A stretch of DNA of 55,395 nucleotides, taken from Nitrospiraceae bacterium. GTDB lineage: Bacteria; Nitrospirota; Thermodesulfovibrionia; UBA6902. Shown here one piece after another: positions 32,479 through 46,720 of the stretch. How positions within the stretch are numbered: position 1 is the first letter of the stretch; the number at the start of each line of letters is the position of its first letter. The position numbers and the translations under genes were made by a program. The stretch spans positions 1 to 55,395 of the forward strand of contig QZKO01000023.1 of assembly GCA_003599505.1 (NCBI GenBank). The letters are read 5' to 3'. The notes beneath the pieces are model-generated. The model was not told where the DNA came from and did no database searches. It worked only from the letters and a program-made list of their open reading frames with translations.

Positions 32479-34932
32479 ATGACAATAAAGAGCAAACTGA
32501 CGCTGAATGTAATAATTGTCCTCAGCATTGTGGCCGCTGTTTCGGCTACAAGCATCATCGGCATGGGGTTTGTTAAAAGAAAGCTCTTTTACCTTACGGA
32601 GCAGAGTACGCCATATCAGATGAGGACCGTTGAATTCCAGAAGGCCATACAGGAAGTCACCGCCGGCCTGATTAAAGTAAGCGTATCAAAAAATGCAGCG
32701 GAATATGACGCCTATCGCAAAGAGGCCGAAGCGGCCCTGAACGGGGTCAAGAACGCGCAGGCCGCCCTCGAGACTCTGTCGGGCAATACCACAATGTCGA
32801 CATATAAGGAGATGCACGAAATAGCTTCCGAGATCTTCGATATGACACATAACAGACTCCAGGCAGAAGACGAAGCTGAAACGGCAAAAAAGACAATTAT
32901 CCAGAAATTAAAAGAGTCCTCAATCAAATTAAATGAGCTTGACAAAAAGATCAGGAGTCTTCAGCTTAACCGTTCCGCGGCATTTATAGTATCAATGGAC
33001 AACGCAAAAGATATAACAGAGAAACTGAAGCCCGCCCAGTCCCTGCAGTCATCGGTAAAAGATTTGCAGGTTGCCGCCGCTTCAGCGGCAGTGGCCGGAG
33101 AACGAAAGGTTTTGACTGTAATTGAAAATAGAATTAACGTCATTATAGACAGGATTTTAAAGAATGCTCATCTGAAAGAATCAAAGAATGCCTCGGCAAG
33201 CCTGAAAACAACTACAGAAAAGGTCAAAGAGCTTGTTAGGCTGAAGGCTTCCCTTTCAGAGAATGCGAATGAAAACATAATAAAGGAATTTAACGAACTT
33301 AATAAGGAAACCGGGGAAAGGCTGACAGGGGACATGGCTGTTATAGAGCATGATATAAATTCCATAATGGAAACGTTCAAGACAGAGTTTGAAAAACAGC
33401 AGAGCAATCTCGTTCAGGTAAATATAGCGAATAATGTCCTGGGAGGCAACTCGGACCTTATATCACAGGGCATAACAATCGACAGCCTGACTGCGAGACT
33501 TTTTATCTCTTCAACCGATAAAGAGATCAACAGCATCAAACAGGAGCTCGAAAAGATATTCGAGGTCATGGATTCCGTAAAGAAGAACCTGGAAAAATCC
33601 CTTAAAAAACTCAAGGCGGAGGAGGAGCTGAAAATGCTTCTTCAGGCGGAGCATGTCGTAAATTCGACAAAAGGCCTCCTGCTTGCGCGTGACGGCATAG
33701 TGGCAAAACTCCGTCATAAAATGAATATGCAGGAAAATGCGCTGGAGGCCACCGAGAAATTAAAGAACATAGTCGTAAAACAGGCTGAAAAAGGAAGGGA
33801 AACGGTTACCATCGCGCAGGAAGAACAGGAAAAGGCAATCGGCACCGTAAATAAAATGGTCAATTACAGCACGGCCCTGCTGGGATTCATCAGTATCGGC
33901 GTTGTGGTTTTCGGCATAGTTTTCGGCATGTGGGTTTACCGGTCGATTGCGAAACCTTTAACACAGCTTATCCATACTTCCGATGAGGTATCCCACGGGA
34001 ATTTAAAGGACGAGCTGCTCGTTGATTCAAACGATGAAATCGGCACAGTCCAGTCATCAATGTCAAAGATGGTTTCCAATCTCAGGGAAATAGTAGAAAA
34101 AATGAGGGCGGCAACGAGCGGTCTCGCAAGCAGCTCCGAAGAATTATCAGCCACTGCGTCTTTATTGGACAAAAATTCAAGAGAGCAGTCCCTGCAGGTG
34201 GAACAGTCGGCAACGGCCATGACCCAGATGTCGCAGACCATACTGGACGTCGCGAAAAATGCCGCGGACACCTCAAAGACCGCCCATGCTATGCAGGAAA
34301 CGGCGATCCTCGGCAAGGAAGAAATGGACGCCACATTGAATGATCTGACGAAATTTGTTGAGACAATAAAGGAATCCGCGGTCAAAATAGAATCACTGGG
34401 ACAAAAGTCCACTGAGGTAACCAATGTCGTCACCCTGATCAAGGATATAGCGGACCAGACAAACCTCCTTGCCCTGAACGCAGCCATAGAAGCGGCACGC
34501 GCCGGCGAACAGGGAAGGGGATTTGCCGTTGTCGCGGACAACGTAAGGCAGCTCGCGGAGAGGACGACACAGGCAACCAACGATATCACAAGCACGATAA
34601 AAACTATGGAAAAAGAAATAAAGGATTCCGTGAAGGCCATGAAAGAGGAGAGGTCTTACGCTGAAAACGTGCTCAACAGCGTAAAGAACGCCCTGCAATC
34701 CATAGACAAAATAGTCGCGTATGTCGGAGGAGTTACCGATATGGTGCAGAGAATCGCGGCGACAACTGAAGAACAGACTGCAACCTCCGATACTGTCTCA
34801 AACAATATGGAGCATATCTCGGGCGTAACGAGGCATTTGAGCAACTCTGTAGCGGAGATAAAACGCTCTTCGGATGACCTTTCAAAACTTGCGACGGACC
34901 TCAATCTGATGGCGGAATGGTTTAAGGTGTAA
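32479..34932 (+). CDS. Methyl-accepting chemotaxis protein
   Basis: An 817-residue transmembrane chemoreceptor. TM1 is at about 9-31 and TM2 at about 463-485 ([20 protein letters not shown]), enclosing a very large, almost wholly helical periplasmic sensor (about 430 residues, several four-helix-bundle-like stretches). A HAMP domain follows (about 486-540) and the signalling hairpin has the invariant tip at about 653-695 ([20 protein letters not shown], then [20 protein letters not shown]). It would pass a periplasmic signal to CheA/CheW. No che genes are nearby. No ribosome site is visible because a terminator ends just before the ATG. Confidence 0.94.
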
Positions 34933-34940
34933 TTCAGAAA

Positions 34941-35025
34941 TGCCGGAGACCGGACTTGAACCGGTACGTTCTTTTGGAACGAGGGATTTTAAGTCCCTTG
35001 CGTCTGCCAATTCCGCCACTCCGGC
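34941..35025 (-). tRNA. tRNA-Leu (anticodon UAA)
   Basis: The minus strand gives an 85-nt class II tRNA: acceptor GCCGGAG pairing with CTCCGGC plus discriminator A, D-arm GTGGCGGAATTGGCAGAC, anticodon stem-loop GGGACTTAAAATCCC with TAA, long variable arm CGTTCCAAAAGAACG and T-arm CCGGTTCAAGTCCGG. CCA is not encoded. It ends 8 bp from the chemoreceptor stop and is convergent with it. Confidence 0.96.
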
Positions 35026-35472
35026 AATATCTCTGGGACAATCAATATCCTGCTCTAAATAAAGCCACGGGACTTCAATGTAATGACTTGTAAATTGGGG
35101 TGCCGTTCGCTCCCTCCGGTCGCTATGCATTCTTCTCATTGGAAAATTGCCAAAATATTGTAGCTTGATCTTTGAAATTATTCAAGGAAGCGGATTTGCC
35201 TTCGGCAGTTGCACGGGCGAGTACCTCTTTTTGACTTTCTGACCTTGCTGTGACATGGCACAATCTTGTACCGCCAAAACATGTGACAAGTACATCTTAA
35301 AACTCCATAACCCACTTCCCTGATTGACCTTTCTGTCTGTATGTGCCTGATTTTTCAGAAAAGACAAAAATCATCTTTACTGGCACCTGTCTTGCAATAT
35401 CTATTATGTTTCTTGGGGCTAATACAGCTTTGCTGTTATGTTTTACCATTTTATTTGCGAAGGGAATGAAGG
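35026..35472 (+). other. Upstream control region of the DUF1566 PEP-CTERM gene
   Basis: 447 bp without a gene. It contains the sigma-54 promoter at 35381-35396 and, upstream of it, two direct TGTGACA copies at 35249-35255 and 35282-35288, spaced 33 bp (about three helical turns). Their distance from the promoter fits activator sites for an NtrC-type protein. Nothing else recognised. Confidence 0.45.
35381..35396 (+). promoter_or_regulatory. Sigma-54 (-24/-12) promoter of the PEP-CTERM DUF1566 gene
   Basis: TGGCACCTGTCTTGCA matches the RpoN consensus TGGCAC-N5-TTGCA exactly, with the invariant GG and GC 10 bp apart. It lies 77 bp before the ATG at 35473. The sigma-54 activator PrsR is encoded 700 bp away. 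Confidence 0.85.
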
Positions 35473-36141
35473 ATGAAGAACCTGTTAATATTTCTGTTTG
35501 TTCTTGCTGCGGTTTCCGGATTCTCCACGCAGTCTTATGCGGGCCTGGAGCTGCGCGGCACAGACAGCCTCGGCGTCAGGTTAATCTACGACAGTGACCT
35601 TGATGTCACGTGGTACGATCATACGAATTCGTATAATACGTGGCAAAATCAGATGGACTGGGTCTCTGCCCTGACTGTGGATTTCGGTGGGACTATTTAT
35701 GATGACTGGCGTTTGCCGTCGACGGTAGATGGTATATTCTCTTTAGGTTATGACGGCACAACCACAGCCGGCTACAATATAACAAGCAGTGAAATGGGGC
35801 ATCTGTTCTATACCGGGCTTGAGAACAAGGGATATTGTGACGCTTCCGCTAATTGTCCACAGCCCGGCTGGGGTCTGACAAACACAGGGCCTTTTCTGAA
35901 TCTGCGGCCGTACACCTACTGGTCCGGCACGGAATACGCCGCCGATACAGTCTTCGCCTGGAGCTTCAGCAACAATTACGGCTACCAGGGCAGTTACAAT
36001 AAAGACTACAACCCCTATTACGCCGTTGCCGTCCGTCCGGGCGACGTCGCAGTCGTGCCTGAACCGGTGTCAATGATGCTGTTCGGCATCGGCGCTGTGT
36101 TATTGGTTGCGCTCAGGATAGTGATCAGGCGGCGCGGATAA
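35473..36141 (+). CDS. PEP-CTERM sorted protein with DUF1566 (Lcl C-terminal-type) domain
   Basis: A 222-residue exported protein. Residues 1-23 are a signal peptide (LLIFLFVLAAVSGFSTQSYA). The core is a DUF1566 domain: LIYDSDLDVTWYDHTN, YDDWRLPSTVDG, YWSGTEYAADTVFAWSFS and YYAVAVRPGD. The C-terminal 28 residues form the sorting signal: VPEP motif, a hydrophobic segment (VSMMLFGIGAVLLVALRIVI) and a basic RRRG end. XrtA would cleave near the PEP motif and pass the protein to the surface, probably in contact with EPS. A sigma-54 promoter stands upstream. Confidence 0.92.
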   Translation: MKNLLIFLFVLAAVSGFSTQSYAGLELRGTDSLGVRLIYDSDLDVTWYDHTNSYNTWQNQMDWVSALTVDFGGTIYDDWRLPSTVDGIFSLGYDGTTTAGYNITSSEMGHLFYTGLENKGYCDASANCPQPGWGLTNTGPFLNLRPYTYWSGTEYAADTVFAWSFSNNYGYQGSYNKDYNPYYAVAVRPGDVAVVPEPVSMMLFGIGAVLLVALRIVIRRRG

Positions 36142-36175: not shown

Positions 36176-37573
36176 TCAACCTGCTTCATCTTTAATAGTT
36201 AATTTATATTTGTCGATTAAATCATAGAGAGTCGGTCTGCTTATTCCTAATTCTTCAGAGGCCCGTTTAATATTACCTCTGTGCCGCATTATCACGTTTT
36301 CAATAAGGTCTTTCTCAAGCCTGTTGCGCGCTTCTTTCAAAGTCATCTTTTCATACTTCCCGCCCTGATTCTCGCCGGTAATTCCCTTTTTAAACTGGTT
36401 CTCCAAACCCATATGATGAGGCTCTATAATATGAGAATCCGCCGTGATAATCGCCTTCTGAATTTTATTTTCAAGCTCCCTGACGTTGCCCGGCCACGGA
36501 TAGCTACCGACCGCTTCGAGGGCTTCCCGGCTGAAGCCTTTTATTTTTTTCCTGAACACGAACTTATATCGTTCAAGAAATGTTTTCGCGAGCAGCAATA
36601 CATCATCTCCGCGCTCCCGCAAGGGAGGGATGCTGATCGATATTACGCTTATTCTGAAAAAAAGGTCCTCGCGGAACTGTTTTTCCTTCATCGCGTTATT
36701 CAGGTCGATATTTGTTGCCGCTATTATACGTGTATCGATCTCTATATCACTCCTGCCGCCGATTCTCTGGACCTTTTTCTCCTGGAGGAACCTTAAGAGC
36801 TTGGACTGAAGTCTCGGGGACATCTCTCCGATCTCGTCAAGGAAAAGGGTCCCTTTATCAGCGTATTCAAACTTGCCGAGCTGCTGGACATACGCGCCGG
36901 TGAACGCGCCTTTTTCATGTCCGAACAACTCGGATTCCAGGAGGGTTTCCGGTATCGCGCCGCAATTGATCGGGATAAAGGGTCCTTTATTCCTTGAGCT
37001 TTTTTCATGGACCGCGCGCGCCACCAGCTCCTTCCCGGTGCCGCTCTCTCCCGTGATCAGCACTGCCGCGTCAGTTGAGGCGACTTTATGAATCGTTTCA
37101 AAAATTTTCAGCATACCGGCGCTCTGCCCGATCATCCCGGCAAATCCCGCTTCCTGCTCGATAATCGTGTGGAGTTTCAGGTTTTCCCTTTCTATCTCAT
37201 GGAGGTGCCAGGCCCTTTGCAGGATTATTTTAAGCTCATTCATGTTTACCGGCTTGAGATAGTAATCATAAGCGCCTATCTGCACCGCCTTGAGCGCGTT
37301 TTCCCTGTCGTTATTGCCCGTAACTATAATAACTTTTGTATCAGGCGCCTGACTAAGGATTTCCTGCAGGCACGACAGTCCTTCACTTGCCCCGTTTTCA
37401 TCAGGAGGCAGACCGAGATCAAGGGTCACGACAGGGGGGTGTTTTGCCTTAAACAGGTTAATCGCAGAGGTCCTGTCGGACGCCTGAAGGATTTCATATC
37501 CTTCGGACAGTCCCCATTTAATATGGGTCCGGATATCAGGATCGTCTTCAACTATGAGTAACAGTTTCATCAT
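36176..37573 (-). CDS. prsR: PEP-CTERM system sigma-54-dependent response regulator PrsR
   Basis: A 465-residue NtrC-type activator. The receiver domain (about 4-120) has phosphoacceptor Asp52 in VVTLDLGLPP and Lys in YYLKPVN. The AAA+ domain has Walker A GESGTGKE at 174-182, the sigma-54-binding GAFTGA in GHEKGAFTGAYVQ, Walker B GTLFLDEIGEM and the arginine-rich REDLFFRISV. A Fis-type helix-turn-helix ends the protein (IKRASEELGISRPTLYDLI). Matches the exosortase-associated regulator family. With PrsK it is expected to turn on PEP-CTERM genes; two sigma-54 boxes in this window fit. It lies at the 3' end of the run prsK, PP-loop, phosphodiesterase, prsR. Confidence 0.93.
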   Translation of the reverse strand: MMKLLLIVEDDPDIRTHIKWGLSEGYEILQASDRTSAINLFKAKHPPVVTLDLGLPPDENGASEGLSCLQEILSQAPDTKVIIVTGNNDRENALKAVQIGAYDYYLKPVNMNELKIILQRAWHLHEIERENLKLHTIIEQEAGFAGMIGQSAGMLKIFETIHKVASTDAAVLITGESGTGKELVARAVHEKSSRNKGPFIPINCGAIPETLLESELFGHEKGAFTGAYVQQLGKFEYADKGTLFLDEIGEMSPRLQSKLLRFLQEKKVQRIGGRSDIEIDTRIIAATNIDLNNAMKEKQFREDLFFRISVISISIPPLRERGDDVLLLAKTFLERYKFVFRKKIKGFSREALEAVGSYPWPGNVRELENKIQKAIITADSHIIEPHHMGLENQFKKGITGENQGGKYEKMTLKEARNRLEKDLIENVIMRHRGNIKRASEELGISRPTLYDLIDKYKLTIKDEAG

Positions 37574-39935: not shown

Positions 39936-42005
39936 TTATTCTGCCGCAAGCGGCAAAAAGACTGCAAAAGAGGTCCCCCGGCCTTCCACGCTGTCTACTG
40001 TCAATTTGCCGGAATGAGCATCAATTATTGTCTTGCACTGATAAAGACCTATTCCGAGCCCTTTCTTCTTGGTGGTCTGAAAAGGCTTAAAAAGTCTCTT
40101 CTCAATAAAATCCGGGGACATTCCGCATCCGTTATCGGTTACTTTTATAAAAGCCATGGAATTCCCGGCGCCTATGTTAATTTTAATCGCGCCCCGGGTC
40201 CCGGCGGCGTCAATTGCATTCATGATCAGGTTAATAATAACTTTTATTATTTCCTCCCTGTCGATTTTCGTATAAACCGGTCCTGCCTCTGTAAAAGATA
40301 ATTTCGGGTCTCCGTTCATATTAAGTTGAGAGACGGCCGACCTGACGCATGCTCCCAGGTCTGAATATTCAAGTTCAAGACTTGTTTTAGCCGGAAGATT
40401 CTTAAGTCTTTCTATAATCCCCTTGATCTTTTCGGAAGTATTGGAAACCGCCCGCATCGCGTCTCTCTGGAAATCAGGATTATCGATATGCTCCTCCGCG
40501 TTATGCGCTATCAGTGAAAGCATGGAAACCGCGTTCTTGAGGTCATGTATTATAAAAGATGATAACCTTCCCACTGCTTCCATTTCCTTTGCTTCGGTCA
40601 ATTCCACGGAAAGCTTTGAATTCATAATAGCCGAAGTCGCCTGTTTAGCCAGGGTTTTCAGGAGATCATAATCCTCGTAATTATACTCATCACCGCTCAG
40701 TCCTTCCTTCAGGATTACAAACCCTATAAGGTCTTCAATATGAAAGAGGGGGACTATAAGAGATGTTTCCGTATTCTCAAGAAAACTTTTATGGATCTCG
40801 ACAATCTCTTTGCATTTATTGTCATCGACATTCAAAATCCATTTTTTGCTCTGTAAAAACTCTATAAGTCCCTTATCGGGGCCTTCCTTAATCACGTCAT
40901 TTTCAGGGCCTGTAACACAGTGGTATTCTCCATTATCTTTTTCTTTCAGCCATACCGATGCCCCCCGTGAGCCAATGGCTTCTTTAAATTCCCCGGCTAT
41001 CGACTCCAGGAGTTCTTCGGATGTATGTTTCAATGAAATACGCTGCGTAAACCGGAGCCATTGTTCCCTGTAATCATATTTTGAACTGTAAAAATTCTTG
41101 CTTATGAAAACCAGGGCCTTTCTCCTTAACTGCTCCGACAGGAGCGCCGTCATAATCAAAATCGCGCCGGCAAAACCAAGGAAGGTCGTAATATTTTTCC
41201 CAACCTGGGGACCCATATAACGCATTCCCTCGCCTACTATGCCGAGGCCGAGGAGATAGAATCCTACGACAAATATACTGACAGACCTGAAAAGAATTTT
41301 TCGGGATATGGCGATCTCAACATGCAAGGCCTTATGTTTGAAAATGGAAAGCCCTATTAAAAGAGCAGAAACCAGGATAACGCCTTCTCTTACGGGAAGA
41401 AGCTCCATATTCAACGAGCGATAAAGCAGGGCATAACTGTAATAAAAAATATTCATGGCAATGATGCTGCCTGCTCCCATAATAGTGTATTTAATTTGCC
41501 ATTTGCCGATTCCCGAGGAACTTCTTAATGTTGCTTCCAGGTTTATGATCGATACGATAGAGTAAAATAAAAGCAAAAGGTTAAAAATATATCCTGTATT
41601 CTCCAGAAAAAGAGTTTTTTCGATATCGAATTCCGGAGAATAAAAAAAATCCTCAACCGGTTTTGCCGTGAAGAAATAGATAAATAGCGGAGATGCTAAT
41701 AATAATGCCCTGGAGAATTTGCTGACAGCTCCCCAATAGTCAACACGGGCAAAGCTCATCGAAAATAAGAGCCATGAGGTGACCATTACAGCCTCGGCAA
41801 TAAAAACGATCCTTTTCCATGTTACAAGCGATTCAGGTCTAAGCACACACAATGAATCGCCTCCAATCACTACCGCGGTCGAGAGGGCGCTGAGAAAAAA
41901 AGCAATATGGGAAATACGGTGATATTTTCTGAATAGGACCACAAATGCGATGAGGATGAGGGACAGTACCGCGAGTGTTGAAAGTATGACTATAACCGTC
42001 TCCAT
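39936..42005 (-). CDS. prsK: PEP-CTERM system membrane histidine kinase PrsK
   Basis: A 689-residue sensor kinase. About eight hydrophobic segments fill residues 1-300, a GAF-like domain spans roughly 320-470 (LLESIAGEFKEAIGSRGASV, SLIVPLFHIEDLIGFVIL), the phosphoacceptor is His487 in SSFIIHDLKNAVSML, and the ATPase has NLIMNAIDAAGTRG (N box), KVTDNGCGMSP (G1) and KGLGIGLYQCK (G2). This matches the exosortase-associated kinase family that partners PrsR. Unlike the usual adjacent pair, two enzyme genes separate it from prsR. The upstream 269 bp is shared with a divergent Crp/Fnr gene. Confidence 0.93.
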   Translation of the reverse strand: METVIVILSTLAVLSLILIAFVVLFRKYHRISHIAFFLSALSTAVVIGGDSLCVLRPESLVTWKRIVFIAEAVMVTSWLLFSMSFARVDYWGAVSKFSRALLLASPLFIYFFTAKPVEDFFYSPEFDIEKTLFLENTGYIFNLLLLFYSIVSIINLEATLRSSSGIGKWQIKYTIMGAGSIIAMNIFYYSYALLYRSLNMELLPVREGVILVSALLIGLSIFKHKALHVEIAISRKILFRSVSIFVVGFYLLGLGIVGEGMRYMGPQVGKNITTFLGFAGAILIMTALLSEQLRRKALVFISKNFYSSKYDYREQWLRFTQRISLKHTSEELLESIAGEFKEAIGSRGASVWLKEKDNGEYHCVTGPENDVIKEGPDKGLIEFLQSKKWILNVDDNKCKEIVEIHKSFLENTETSLIVPLFHIEDLIGFVILKEGLSGDEYNYEDYDLLKTLAKQATSAIMNSKLSVELTEAKEMEAVGRLSSFIIHDLKNAVSMLSLIAHNAEEHIDNPDFQRDAMRAVSNTSEKIKGIIERLKNLPAKTSLELEYSDLGACVRSAVSQLNMNGDPKLSFTEAGPVYTKIDREEIIKVIINLIMNAIDAAGTRGAIKINIGAGNSMAFIKVTDNGCGMSPDFIEKRLFKPFQTTKKKGLGIGLYQCKTIIDAHSGKLTVDSVEGRGTSFAVFLPLAAE

Positions 42006-42182: not shown

Positions 42183-42275
42183 ATGGCTTCTGATTATTCA
42201 ACTCGGAAAAGCAGACCCGATGCCGGAGGACCTTCCATGCAGAAAACATCCGGAATACCCGGGAGAACCGAATAA
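42183..42275 (+). CDS. Possible 30-codon leader peptide ending on the Crp/Fnr start codon
   Basis: ATG at 42183 opens a 30-codon frame (MASDYSTRKSRPDAGGPSMQ at the start) whose TAA shares one base with the ATG of the downstream regulator (TAATG). Such overlap would couple translation. There is no Shine-Dalgarno and no family likeness, so it may be chance. Confidence 0.25.
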   Translation: MASDYSTRKSRPDAGGPSMQKTSGIPGRTE

Positions 42276-42973
42276 TGCAGGACACCCACAAGAATGAATT
42301 CCTGAAAAAGATCAGGCTGTTCTCATCATTGACGGACAGTGAGATTGATAATCTCATAACTAAGCTGGTTGTAAAAAAATTCAGGAAACATGAAACGATT
42401 TTACATGAAGAAGACACGAATGAATTCATGTACATTATCCTGTTGGGGAAAGTTAAAGCCATTCGCGTAACGGAAGACGGCAAAGAAATAATCCTCGCGG
42501 TACATCAGTCAGGTGAGTTCTTCGGAGAGATGTCCCTCATTGACGGCAGGACGACCCCCGCGTCTGTAATAGCAACTGAAGATTCCCTTATTGCTCTGAT
42601 CTCCAAAAATGATTTCTATTCAACCTTACTGGTGCAAAACAAGGTAGTCGTAAACCTGTTAAAAATATTCTGCGTAAGACTGCGCAAATCCTGGGACACC
42701 ATACAACTGCTCAATTTCAACAATGCGTCCCAAAGAGTTAAGATGCTTTTTCTTATGCTGTCTGAAGAATACGGTAAAAAATCACCTGAAGGAGTGACGT
42801 TAAACATCAGGTTGACTCACCAGGATATTGCCGAAATGACGGGTATGACACGTGAAACTATAACAAGGATAATAGACAAATGGCAAAAAAGCGGAGAACT
42901 TGCAGTCCTTAGAGATAAACTTATCCGTCTTAGTCCGCTTTTTTTCCAGAAAGATATTGATATAAAGTTATAA
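42275..42973 (+). CDS. Crp/Fnr-family transcriptional regulator
   Basis: 232 residues: a cyclic-nucleotide-binding-type beta-roll (about 15-125, with GEFFGEMSLIDGRTTPASVIA in the ligand-pocket place), a long dimer helix, and a Crp-type winged helix with LTHQDIAEMTGMTRETITRI as the recognition helix. No Cys cluster for an Fe-S sensor is present, so it is not a classical Fnr. GGGAG stands about 10 nt before the ATG. It is divergent from prsK and convergent with a PEP-CTERM gene; a shared hairpin terminator follows. It may tie EPS/PEP-CTERM expression to a nucleotide signal (inference). Confidence 0.92.
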   Translation: MQDTHKNEFLKKIRLFSSLTDSEIDNLITKLVVKKFRKHETILHEEDTNEFMYIILLGKVKAIRVTEDGKEIILAVHQSGEFFGEMSLIDGRTTPASVIATEDSLIALISKNDFYSTLLVQNKVVVNLLKIFCVRLRKSWDTIQLLNFNNASQRVKMLFLMLSEEYGKKSPEGVTLNIRLTHQDIAEMTGMTRETITRIIDKWQKSGELAVLRDKLIRLSPLFFQKDIDIKL

Positions 42974-43066: not shown

Positions 43067-43708
43067 TTATTTCTTTCTCCGCCTTGCGTAGAAGGCTGCG
43101 CCGATTAGCCCTGAACCGAGGAGCAGTAAAGTACCGGGCTCCGGAACGGGTGTAAGCTCCAGATCAAAACTGGATTGTCCCGGACCTCTGTGCGTTAAAG
43201 TGGCGATCCCTGTCAGAGAGAAAGAAGCGGGTATTGAAACAGGGTAGCTGTCAACTGAACCGCTGAAAGCTCCGGGGCCGAATACACCTAAGCTCCCAAG
43301 CAGAGTGCCTTCATCAAATAAAGAGCTCCCCATCCACGTTTCAAAGCTTGCCGTTCCACCTGCCGTTCCGCCGACTTTTGTGCTGAACCCGGGTTCGGTC
43401 GCGCTGAATCCCGTGTCACCAAATTTTATCGTCAGGGTGCCGCCTCCCGTGGTATTGACATTAACGGAATTCAGATCCAGATATGGGATGGTGGTCAGGC
43501 CTGTGCTTACATTAATGTCAAACACGCCCACCGCACCGATAAAAGTAACTACACCAGAAGTCGGATTGCTGTCTCCAGCCAAGCCATCGGTAATAGTAAC
43601 GGTATTTTCAGGTACACCATCACTTAATTCCAGTGTAGGTATTGCGAAAACAGATTGAAATCCAAGTCCGACAAATACCGCCAATATAAACAATAATATT
43701 TTCTTCAT
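43067..43708 (-). CDS. PEP-CTERM sorted protein of unknown core
   Basis: A 213-residue exported protein. Signal peptide residues 1-22 (ILLFILAVFVGLGFQSVFA). The middle (about 25-185) is a beta-rich, Gly/Thr/Ser-rich region with no family I recognise; a choice-of-anchor-type sandwich is possible. The last 26 residues are a textbook sorting signal: VPEPGTLLLLGSGLIGAAFY then ARRRKK. Expected fate: cleavage by XrtA and surface display with EPS. It has a strong AGGAGGT ribosome site and a sigma-54 promoter 71-85 bp upstream. Confidence 0.92.
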   Translation of the reverse strand: MKKILLFILAVFVGLGFQSVFAIPTLELSDGVPENTVTITDGLAGDSNPTSGVVTFIGAVGVFDINVSTGLTTIPYLDLNSVNVNTTGGGTLTIKFGDTGFSATEPGFSTKVGGTAGGTASFETWMGSSLFDEGTLLGSLGVFGPGAFSGSVDSYPVSIPASFSLTGIATLTHRGPGQSSFDLELTPVPEPGTLLLLGSGLIGAAFYARRRKK

Positions 43709-43778
43709 TACTTACCTCCTTGTATTTTAATTTTAAATCCCATAAGTTTTATTGGTTACATTATCTTTATTTTTAAAA

Positions 43779-43793
43779 GCAACATTCATGCCA
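43779..43793 (-). promoter_or_regulatory. Sigma-54 (-24/-12) promoter of the second PEP-CTERM gene
   Basis: On the minus strand TGGCATGAATGTTGC has the invariant GG and GC 10 bp apart and matches TGGCAC-N5-TTGC with one change. It lies 71 bp before the ATG at 43708, much like the site before the DUF1566 gene. Confidence 0.82.
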
Positions 43794-44140
43794 TTCATTG
43801 TTTTTTCATAACCCCTCAATAATGAATATTATTTTGGATTCACCATCACAATGCCGTTGCCAGTGAATGTAAACCTATCCGACACAGAATAATGCTCAAC
43901 ATTGTTTATTAAATAGTAAAAAAAATATAACCGTATATTTTTATTAACTTTATTTAAAACGTTAAGACAGATGTAACTATTTTTTCTAAAAGTAAAGAAA
44001 ATCGACACCTTTTAGTGAGACCCTGTTGTTCGATTAATAAATTTAATTGTATAGATTTCCATACAGTTCCACTGTCTTCAAGGATGAACAACTTACACAT
44101 TTTATCTCTAACTAATGGTAAGTTAATAATAATTTATTGA

Positions 44141-44156
44141 TAGCACGTTTATTGCA
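44141..44156 (+). promoter_or_regulatory. Weak sigma-54-like site upstream of the Fn3 lipoprotein gene
   Basis: TAGCACGTTTATTGCA has the spacing and -12 element of a sigma-54 promoter, but the first G of the -24 GG is A. It is 237 bp before the chosen ATG, so it would give a long leader. Confidence 0.4.
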
Positions 44157-44392
44157 ACTATCCCTCAAACTAAGAAATTGAATTATATGATTATTTACTT
44201 TAAAACCATAGCAAGGTCTGCTTTTTTCCTGACCAATACCAGTAAACATTTAACTGTAAGGCAACCTAACTCTATTGTAAAAAAAATAAACATATTGTGA
44301 CTGTGGACACATAAACATGATTGGCTAAATTTTATTATATGAATATGGAAATCACAAATTTAAATAAGCGCTTCTCACTCGGGAGGACAATT

Positions 44393-44805: not shown

Positions 44806-45432
44806 TTATTCAGGCAAATAACCTGCCAAAAGAGGCAGGAAATCCTGAATGGCGGCCTCTAAAACAAACTTTGCCTCGCCTTTATCTTTTTCAACCGGTG
44901 TCGAAAACCTTATAAAGGCCGCGTCGTTTCTCCCATACCTTACTGAATTCAGTATCATATATAATTTCAAGACATATTCGTTGGTAATAAACGCATCTTT
45001 TATTTGATACCAGTAAATAAACACTTCCCTCTCCGTACCTTTCCGGTAAACGGCCTCTGTAACATCAATCTTTCCTACTCCGTCAATATTGAAACTCCTT
45101 GTCTTCTCGGAAAGCCTGAACCATCCGCCGCCGGGAAGACAATGTTTCGGCGAATGAATCTGCGCCCCTTCCTTCTGGGCGCCGTAATAACCGATATACA
45201 GGTTGATCACGTTATCCCCTTTTTTATATTCTCTCGCCATGTACTCGCTCGCCCGCAGCTTATCAAGCACCTTATCGTCGAAATAATATGCCTTCCCTTC
45301 CCATCCCTTCCACTGAAGCGGAAATTCATCAAATGCTTTCTTCATAGGCACTATTTCATGGAACGGGAATACCTTGATATACAACGCGAACGCGATGATA
45401 ATGATGGATGAAACAATTAATCTTCTGTTCAT
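44806..45432 (-). CDS. epsI: EpsI family protein of the exosortase A system
   Basis: 208 residues: one N-terminal membrane anchor (about 5-22, VSSIIIIAFALYIKVFPF), then a periplasmic EpsI domain with FPLQWKGWEGKAYYFDD, INLYIGYYGAQKEGAQIHSP, KHCLPGGGWF and EVFIYWYQIKDAFITNEY. EpsI is the usual partner of EpsH/XrtA, either as a separate protein or fused to it, and is needed for EPS formation in studied systems; its chemistry is unsettled. It begins 2 bp after xrtA and ends the operon. Confidence 0.93.
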   Translation of the reverse strand: MNRRLIVSSIIIIAFALYIKVFPFHEIVPMKKAFDEFPLQWKGWEGKAYYFDDKVLDKLRASEYMAREYKKGDNVINLYIGYYGAQKEGAQIHSPKHCLPGGGWFRLSEKTRSFNIDGVGKIDVTEAVYRKGTEREVFIYWYQIKDAFITNEYVLKLYMILNSVRYGRNDAAFIRFSTPVEKDKGEAKFVLEAAIQDFLPLLAGYLPE

Positions 45433-45434
45433 CG

Positions 45435-46271
45435 TTATCCTTTGCTCTTGACCTTTCCAAGAACCACGGCGGACAATATCAGCAGCGCGATCGCTACGCC
45501 GAATATCATAAGCCCCCCGAATTCGTGAAAGAAACCTTCTGCTGCTGCGGCTCCATGTCTATCAGCAAGAACGCCCGTGCCTATAATCCTTAAGGCGTTC
45601 ACAAACACGGCGATCGGGACCGCGAGAACAACAAGTATAAACTTTTTTATCCGTCCCTTCTGCGTCAAATATGCAAGGGCTGTTGACAGGGCGAGCAGAG
45701 AAACAACAGACCTTATCCCGCTGCACGCGTCCGCTACCTCAAGCGTCGTACCCGCGAGATGGATAATATTCCCTTCCCGCAAAACAAGAACGCCTGTTAA
45801 GGACAGAAATTCTACCGAGAACTTTGACACAAAGAGCTTCAAAGGAAATGCGACAGAATCATAAAGCAGGTAAGGCATCGGTATCATGAATACAAGATAA
45901 ATGAACGGGAAAGACACGGCTTTGAAAAATCCGGGGCCGAACGAAAATATCACTGCCCCCGCAAGCACAACAAGCATCGAAAGCCTCATGGAGAACGACT
46001 CGCCCGAAAGATTGCCGATCAGGAAAATGACGAGTCCGGAAAACAATATTAAAAGACCCCAGTTCGACGGAGTTATGACAGCCGATTTCAAATTATCTTT
46101 TTTCTGCCAAAGCAGATAACCGGATATGAAAGGTATCAGAAAACCATGGGAGTAATTCTCGTCGTTGTACCAGTCCAAAACTACCTTGTAAGCGGTATCC
46201 CAGTACAAAAATCCAAAGGCGATCAGAGAGAATATGACCGGTACGATGTGGATTCTCTTATAATTTTTCAT
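45435..46271 (-). CDS. xrtA: Exosortase A (EpsH/XrtA)
   Basis: Membrane cysteine protease/transpeptidase-like enzyme that processes PEP-CTERM proteins. I start at ATG 46271, with GTGGAG 6-7 nt upstream, giving 278 residues; the frame is open further upstream, but that part reads as noncoding. About eight TM segments. The catalytic triad is visible: Cys183 in VADACSGIRSVVS, Arg228 in FVNALRIIG and His249 in AEGFFHEFGGLM. HGFLIPFISGYLLW near the N-terminus is also conserved. Followed 2 bp later by epsI. The window contains at least two substrates. Confidence 0.96.
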   Translation of the reverse strand: MKNYKRIHIVPVIFSLIAFGFLYWDTAYKVVLDWYNDENYSHGFLIPFISGYLLWQKKDNLKSAVITPSNWGLLILFSGLVIFLIGNLSGESFSMRLSMLVVLAGAVIFSFGPGFFKAVSFPFIYLVFMIPMPYLLYDSVAFPLKLFVSKFSVEFLSLTGVLVLREGNIIHLAGTTLEVADACSGIRSVVSLLALSTALAYLTQKGRIKKFILVVLAVPIAVFVNALRIIGTGVLADRHGAAAAEGFFHEFGGLMIFGVAIALLILSAVVLGKVKSKG

Positions 46272-46350
46272 AACGACTCCACGCGGAAAGGACTTCACCG
46301 CAAAGGGGGGAGAGCGCCGTCCGTTTCTATGAAAAACCGGCAGCGCAAAA

Positions 46351-46720
46351 TCAGTATCTTGCCCAATACCATAAAAGCTTTGTGTATTCGTAAAACAGCA
46401 ATTCAAACAGCCCGGAATGCTTCCATAAGCGCGATAAATGGATTAGATTTGTAAACACTGAATCGGAAGGGACAAAAATAAATTTCATCTGTTCATCCGG
46501 AGACGACAGCTTACTGAATTTTACTCCCTATCACCATGATCCTGTCGGCATATCCTGCTGTGAACAGTTCAGCGGCCTTCGGTACTCTATCTCCCGCAAT
46601 ATCCCCGCTTAACACTATTATAATATCCGCTTTGCCGGGATTATCCTTAAAAGCGAGAAAATCATAACCTGATTTTATTAAATAAGAATTGGTAAGGAAA
46701 AGCAGCAACAGTACTGCAAC
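46351..46720 (-). pseudogene. YdcF/DUF218 (ElyC-SanA type) gene with internal deletion and frameshift
   Basis: The minus strand first reads a TM segment and the DUF218 entry region (about 46720-46511): AVLLLLFLTNSYLI, then KADIIIVLSGDIAG, RVPKAAELFTAGYADRIMVI and a stop. In the next frame the typical DUF218 end appears (about 46515-46351): DEQMKFIFVPSDSVFTNLIH, LSRLWKHSGLFELLFYEYTK, LLWYWARY, stop. The middle, which carries the conserved Ser/Asn and His region, is absent. So both ends of one gene survive around a deletion. YdcF-type proteins often stand next to xrtA and may take part in envelope polymer synthesis. An 80-bp spacer leads to xrtA. Confidence 0.72.

Follow-up and report, generated by a model that had tools for sequence, protein, structure and literature searches.

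The window, that is, the whole stretch of DNA that was analyzed, is contig C12 (55,395 bases) of a 2.64-Mb genome that is 95% complete. Its features are summarized in Table 1. The gene starting at position 35473 is preceded by an intergenic stretch that extends from a tRNA gene on the opposite strand (34941–35025) to the ATG. The C-terminal tail of its product, VVPEPVSMMLF...RRRG, has the PEP motif, a hydrophobic stretch, and a basic end. In profile searches, the protein barely passed TIGR02595 (16.1 bits; cut-off, 16), in agreement with the preliminary description, which had placed a PEP-CTERM gene downstream of the promoter. The cut-off of PF07589 was not reached in the Pfam search, and the Lcl_C-like domain scored slightly below its Pfam cut-off (33.0 versus 34.9 bits). 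A broken copy of the Lcl_C/PEP-CTERM family with several in-frame stops is located at G000 C2:37210–37876 (− strand). As had also been described, prsR lies next door. It is convergent with 35473, and the two genes are therefore not in one operon. Among named records, this PrsR is closest to proteins from Nitrospirae, Nitrospiraceae, and Thermodesulfovibrionia MAGs (67–79% identity). Further along the window (44141–44320), a fibronectin type III gene adjoining the exosortase gene is preceded by TAGCACGTTTATTGCA, which comes close to a sigma-54 site, and by a stretch reading TGTGACTGTGGACACA.

Table 1. Positions of the features in the window and of the small CYC protein copies at other loci
Feature	Position	Strand	Remarks
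14-bp palindrome TGTGACATGGCACA	35249..35262	+	core of predicted activator site; p = 0.002 with a palindrome model built from sites adjoining activator genes
Middle half-site TGTACC	35267..35272	+	degenerate, weak copy (family consensus TGTGACA); +18 from palindrome start
Third half-site TGTGACA	35282..35288	+	at +33 (family mostly +34); second TGTGACA repeat
Sigma-54 (−24/−12) promoter TGGCACCTGTCTTGCA	35381..35396	+	76 nt before ATG at 35473
PEP-CTERM protein gene	35473..36141	+	predicted target; 222 aa; Lcl_C/DUF1566-like
prsR, response regulator of PEP-CTERM system	36176..37573	−	TIGR02915, 635.5 bits
prsK, histidine kinase	39936..42005	−	TIGR02916, 547.9 bits
Crp-type gene	42275..42973		
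PEP-CTERM protein gene	43067..43708	−	tail PEPGTLLLLGSG; behind PrsR-type promoter
Sigma-54 promoter TGGCATGAATGTTGCT of gene 43067–43708	43778..43793	−	
PrsR-type box GTCGGATAGGTTTACA	43868..43883	−	ends 74 nt before sigma-54 site; contrast case in window
EpsI	44806..45432		TIGR02914, 139.3 bits
Exosortase	45435..46406	−	TIGR03109, 218 bits (cut-off, 208); XrtA model cut-off exceeded
Small CYC protein copies	L293:658-846, L295:3527-3715, L307:3078-3275, L289:5057-5467	− (all)	

The sigma-54 promoter and its upstream sites

The GG and GC of the sigma-54 site of 35473 are at 35382–35383 and 35394–35395, respectively, and the transcription start is predicted to lie near 35407. The exact consensus TGGCAC-N5-TTGCA recognized in the preliminary description was confirmed; it occurs only once in the window (0.02 expected in shuffled sequences). 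In the whole genome, TGGCAC-N5-TTGCW occurs five times and the backwards pattern not at all. The preliminary description had staked the promoter on the presence of rpoN, and this gene was found on contig C20 (PF04552, 205.8 bits). Among 16 perfect sites of the form TGGCAY-N5-TTGCW in the genome, four have PEP-CTERM genes downstream (35473, 43708, C7, and C45). Less perfect sites precede the PEP-CTERM genes on C71, C80, and C51, the last of which is apparently split across two contigs. No sigma-54 site was found before the PEP-CTERM genes C2:80727 and C59, the latter with only ~210 nt of upstream sequence. In this survey, the PEP-CTERM gene on C58 is truncated by the contig and C2:37225 is broken.

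Two TGTGACA direct repeats (35249–35255 and 35282–35288) are present; their starts are 33 bp apart, as described, and precede the sigma-54 site by 132 and 99 nt. Their comparison to TGGACA was wrong, as this hexamer is absent from the 220 nt upstream. TGTGACA by itself is no rarer than chance in the window (3 seen, 3.7 expected), so that the two 7-mers as such are not significant, and TGTGACA was rejected as a stand-alone motif. The observation is significant because the first repeat is one half of the palindrome TGTGACATGGCACA, which is separated from the downstream sigma-54 site by 118 nt.

The PrsR-type box in this genome has the form GTCGG-N6-TTACA, which was equated with the motif of Haft et al. 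(PMC1569441), ending in TTTACA, from its description in the text. At gene 43067–43708, the spacing between box and sigma-54 site agrees with the range given in the promoter passage of that report. The same box form was found before C45, C71, C42, C14, and the second C7 promoter, where the nearest full box is 52–105 nt before the sigma-54 site, and one relative (L037) has two boxes. A box of this kind, GTCGATATATTTTACA, precedes a PEP-CTERM gene on a Vibrio alfacsensis plasmid that carries prsR; the stretch examined of a Nitratidesulfovibrio plasmid region with a PrsR-type activator contained no box. Upstream of 35473, no PrsR-type box was detected (best leave-one-out score, 2.8; p = 0.72).

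The 11 promoters scored in this genome fall into two upstream-site classes. The palindrome class consists of 35473, C7, C80 (weaker, p = 0.010), C51, and C63, the score of the last being partly circular because its site is identical in sequence to sites used for the scoring model. The PrsR-box class consists of 43708, C45, C71, C42, C14, and the second C7 site (p = 0.002–0.005). One cross-match was observed: on the opposite strand of the C7 palindrome promoter, a sequence weakly resembles the box (p = 0.035). PEPGT tails were found in three of the four PrsR-box PEP-CTERM genes (43708, C71, and L037) and a PEPVS tail in C45, small numbers in any case.

Distribution of the palindrome in related genomes

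A search of 61 genomes for TGTGNCATGGCACA gave 44 rows; seven perfect palindromes appeared once per strand, and merging these left 37 places. These places are distributed over 23 of the 37 genomes of the family. None of the 24 genomes outside the family has a match, and the reversed TGTGNCATGGCACA control did not match in any of the 61. A strict sigma-54 site (TGGCAY-N5-TTGM) is located 50–200 nt from 20 of the 37 places, compared with 1.6% of random positions at the same loci. A PEP-CTERM reading frame ends within 1.5 kb of 21 places (control positions, 7/595). The tails of these 21 frames, a small sample, comprise 16 PEP[VIL]S-LF, four PEPGQV-LF, and one PEPSSYILF, and none is PEPGT-LLLGSG. 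The relatives' set comprised 72 genes whose match begins close to the N-terminus, leaving out own rows, the contig-edge rows G044:C261 and G024:C161, row G002:C47, and partial matches.

The additional half-sites are also shared. Among 42 promoters with a palindrome of at most one mismatch 40–186 nt upstream of the sigma-54 site, TGTG appears again at +18 (19 promoters) and at +33/34 (23 promoters). Because these loci are related to one another, and because having the palindrome or the activator was in part the ground for selecting them, binomial p-values for this recurrence are overstated. Since the half-sites recur at +33/34 in other genomes, the 33-bp spacing of the repeats is a feature of the family. 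The genes downstream of the 42 promoters encode PEP-CTERM proteins (16), a conserved small CYC-motif protein (17), or neither (9). The small protein (~60–80 aa; CP...CYC.KM.S.DIE..V..C..NF..C.IY) is encoded directly 3' of a C63-type activator gene, described below, and in some genomes ahead of a PEP-CTERM gene. Two copies were searched, and neither matched a Pfam or NCBIfam model at cut-off.

PrsR, searched as a match at 1e-150 with the best 27 candidates per genome scored, was undetected in seven of the 23 palindrome genomes (G001, G003, G007, G008, G012, G016, and G033). Four of the seven are at least 92% complete (G003, 96%; G007, 92%; G008, 99%; G016, 92%).

A version of the element was found at an N-acyl synthase locus. 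In 16 genomes, a C7-like PEP-CTERM gene is divergent from an acyltransferase gene, which was identified by TIGR03694 in the genome itself (184.7 bits) and by resemblance in the others. The two genes are separated by a conserved block, TGGCACTGTAAC..GTGTGCA.CTTTTGCCATGTCACA, which includes a half of the palindrome or a variant thereof. The far half of the block is weaker in G001, G002, G020, and G023, and a TATTAT-like box follows the block toward the acyltransferase gene. The element here probably overlaps a sigma-70-like promoter. Two promoters may be controlled jointly through this block, or it may mark a sigma-70 promoter that has a separate regulator. At L237:3438–6702, an N-acyl synthase-like gene (TIGR03694) is followed by genes for a histidine kinase and a sigma-54 activator and is divergent from a PEP-CTERM gene, an arrangement that looks like a signal-synthase plus two-component operon.

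Candidate activator and alternative binders

The genome encodes 24 full sigma-54 activators. The C63 activator (567 aa) consists of REC (PF00072), PAS, AAA (PF00158), and Fis HTH (PF02954) domains; its domain composition is that of the NtrC family, and its GAFTGA loop reads GSFTGA. It reaches no NCBIfam equivalog cut-off (AtoC model, 420.6 bits versus 714), and no plasmid matches were found for it. A putative 660-aa histidine kinase, named from sequence reading, is encoded just upstream, and downstream are a near-palindrome, a sigma-54 site, and a small CYC gene. Orthologues with at least 66% identity are present in 29 of the 37 family genomes. Of these 29 loci (L329–L357, a set that excludes G042, which belongs to another family, and the second activator copies of G016 and G011), 18 have a palindrome with no more than one mismatch within 360 nt of the activator gene end (shuffled, 0.07%), and 23 have one with no more than two mismatches (shuffled, 1.1%). 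Outside the family, a 65% relative of the activator in G042 is beside a palindrome without mismatch, which is followed after 131 nt by a sigma-54-like site and by a PEP-CTERM gene. The C63-type activator occurs in 21 of the 23 palindrome genomes (Fisher p = 0.022) and PrsR in 16 (p = 0.10), both within the family, and the occurrences of the two are themselves correlated (p = 0.034); the Fisher tests ignore kinship.

Here, we propose that the 35473 promoter belongs to a second, PrsR-independent sigma-54 regulon of PEP-CTERM proteins, and that the C63 protein is the likeliest activator; we regard this reading as probable, with appreciable room for doubt. The sigma-54 promoter with an enhancer of spaced repeats, as the preliminary description had it, is supported. 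The upstream sites appear to be part of a second, so far undescribed activator system for many cell-surface proteins in one Nitrospirota family. In the proposed mechanism, an enhancer-binding protein would bind the upstream array, which is composed of the palindrome TGTGNCATGNCACA and half-sites ~18 and 33/34 bp further on and is usually positioned 74–132 nt before the −24/−12 site. The bound activator would then drive RpoN-containing RNA polymerase to form the open complex. The likeliest candidate for this role is the C63 REC-PAS-AAA-Fis response regulator with the putative histidine kinase just upstream; neighborhood and co-occurrence suggest that it may bind the palindrome and the TGTGNCATGNCACA array. 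Counting against this reading, eight family genomes have the activator without an exact palindrome, and G030 and G033 have the palindrome and only a 54–63% relative of the activator. The version of the element at the N-acyl synthase locus also counts against it, as do the 17 of 37 exact palindromes without a nearby strict sigma-54 site.

The same regulon could instead be served by another enhancer-binding protein, such as the C47 paralogue (64%), the C7 activator, the GlrR-like C44, the activator adjacent to the C80 PEP-CTERM gene, or others near some sites. This is a minor alternative, which we consider unlikely. With 24 activators, the choice is wide; the C7 activator begins ~2 kb from a palindrome-class promoter, and another genome has a C44-type activator close to a locus of this kind. 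The C7 activator, of the N-acyl synthase operon, was considered as the binder because the element lies between the synthase and PEP-CTERM genes in 16 genomes, and was retained as a rival candidate. However, in two genomes in which a C7-type activator follows the synthase (G001 and G002), the far half of the element at that locus is weak, and the C80 activator has GAFTDA instead of GAFTGA. Among the site loci examined, only C63-type activators recur adjoining an exact palindrome (twice in G016 and once in G011), and one also adjoins a one-mismatch site in G000.

The protein at the palindrome might also not be an enhancer-binding protein at all; a Crp/Fnr-type dimer or a repressor, for example, could act over an otherwise driven sigma-54 promoter. 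The symmetry and 14-bp length of the palindrome are compatible with Crp/Fnr-type sites as well, and the window contains a Crp-type gene. The probable overlap with a sigma-70-like promoter at the N-acyl synthase locus and the 17 exact sites lacking a strict sigma-54 site nearby point in the same direction. Such a role is nevertheless improbable: the palindrome is strongly linked to sigma-54 sites at distances like those of enhancers, the three half-sites keep register, and in 18 of 29 genomes the palindrome adjoins the gene for the C63-type activator. In the reading of the preliminary description, PrsR would act at the TGTGACA repeats and so control 35473. This is suggested by the neighboring prsR and by PEP-CTERM genes under PrsR in other bacteria, in the passages on this point in PMC3333781 and PMC9012009, but was rejected as very improbable: PrsR-type boxes of the form GTCGG-N6-TTACA occur in the genome and in the window and none at 35473, the element is found in seven genomes with no PrsR detected, and the convergent prsR is not co-transcribed.

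Relation to known PEP-CTERM regulation

In the promoter passages of Haft et al. 2006 (PMC1569441), a proteobacterial 17-nt motif, sometimes repeated, is located 32–92 nt (mean, 62.8) before a sigma-54 motif; the average distance of the latter from the start codon is 71 nt. The system proposed here resembles PrsK/PrsR, as described in such passages, in having a sigma-54 promoter ~70–80 nt before a single PEP-CTERM gene, an upstream activator site, and a response-regulator activator. This genome has PrsK/PrsR itself as well, for PEP-CTERM genes other than 35473. In contrast, the site at 35473 is the TGTGNCATGNCACA array instead of GTCGG-N6-TTACA, its 118-nt distance to the sigma-54 site exceeds the range cited above, the likely activator has an extra PAS domain, and the element occurs without detected PrsR. 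NtrC-family systems are similar in that a REC-AAA-Fis regulator is encoded next to a putative histidine kinase and palindromic sites ~three helical turns apart lie upstream of the −24/−12 site, whereas the C63 protein stays below the equivalog cut-offs and its predicted targets are genes for PEP-CTERM and small Cys-rich proteins. The pepA gene of Aquincola tertiaricarbonis is likewise an RpoN-dependent PEP-CTERM gene; according to the section of PMC9850573 on its promoter, its start was mapped after TGGCAC/CTGCTT and requires RpoN1. This gene is, however, proteobacterial and is said in that report to have the previously predicted enhancer. RpoN dependence and PrsK–PrsR control are described for floc-forming Proteobacteria in the corresponding parts of PMC9850573 and PMC9012009.

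Two sigma-54 activators may divide the PEP-CTERM proteins of the family, a reading to which we give an even chance. PrsR with GTCGG-N6-TTACA would serve mostly PEPGT-LLLGSG tails, and the new pair of kinase and REC-PAS-AAA-Fis regulator with the TGTGNCATGNCACA array would serve PEP[VI]S-LF tails, the small CYC-motif protein, and the locus shared with the N-acyl synthase. If true, the cells could swap sets of sorted surface proteins in response to a signal. Haft et al. state, in their remarks on regulation, that additional regulators of PEP-CTERM genes, and additional DNA motifs, are still to be found (PMC1569441). The present proposal would name one of them with a precise site, a target gene set, and a candidate activator; at the time of that work, their box had not been reported from this phylum. 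In a search of the open-access literature, with subscription journals mostly outside its scope, no paper on a second PEP-CTERM activator or on the palindrome site was found. With the proposed site and activator, the regulation of exosortase substrates becomes testable by simple binding assays. The case of 35473 is also a warning that adjacency is no ground for assigning sigma-54 promoters to PrsR.

The boxes in this genome indicate that the PrsR box extends beyond Proteobacteria into Nitrospirota. Near 34082 of G000 C7 (L012 and L237), a PrsR-box sigma-54 promoter precedes a short frame of CCGTAKNPCIEVELHPVVAEN repeats. At G000 C42:10429–10571, paired PrsR boxes and a sigma-54-like site precede a PilZ-like gene, so named from its sequence, which suggests that PrsR may also control a c-di-GMP-linked gene.
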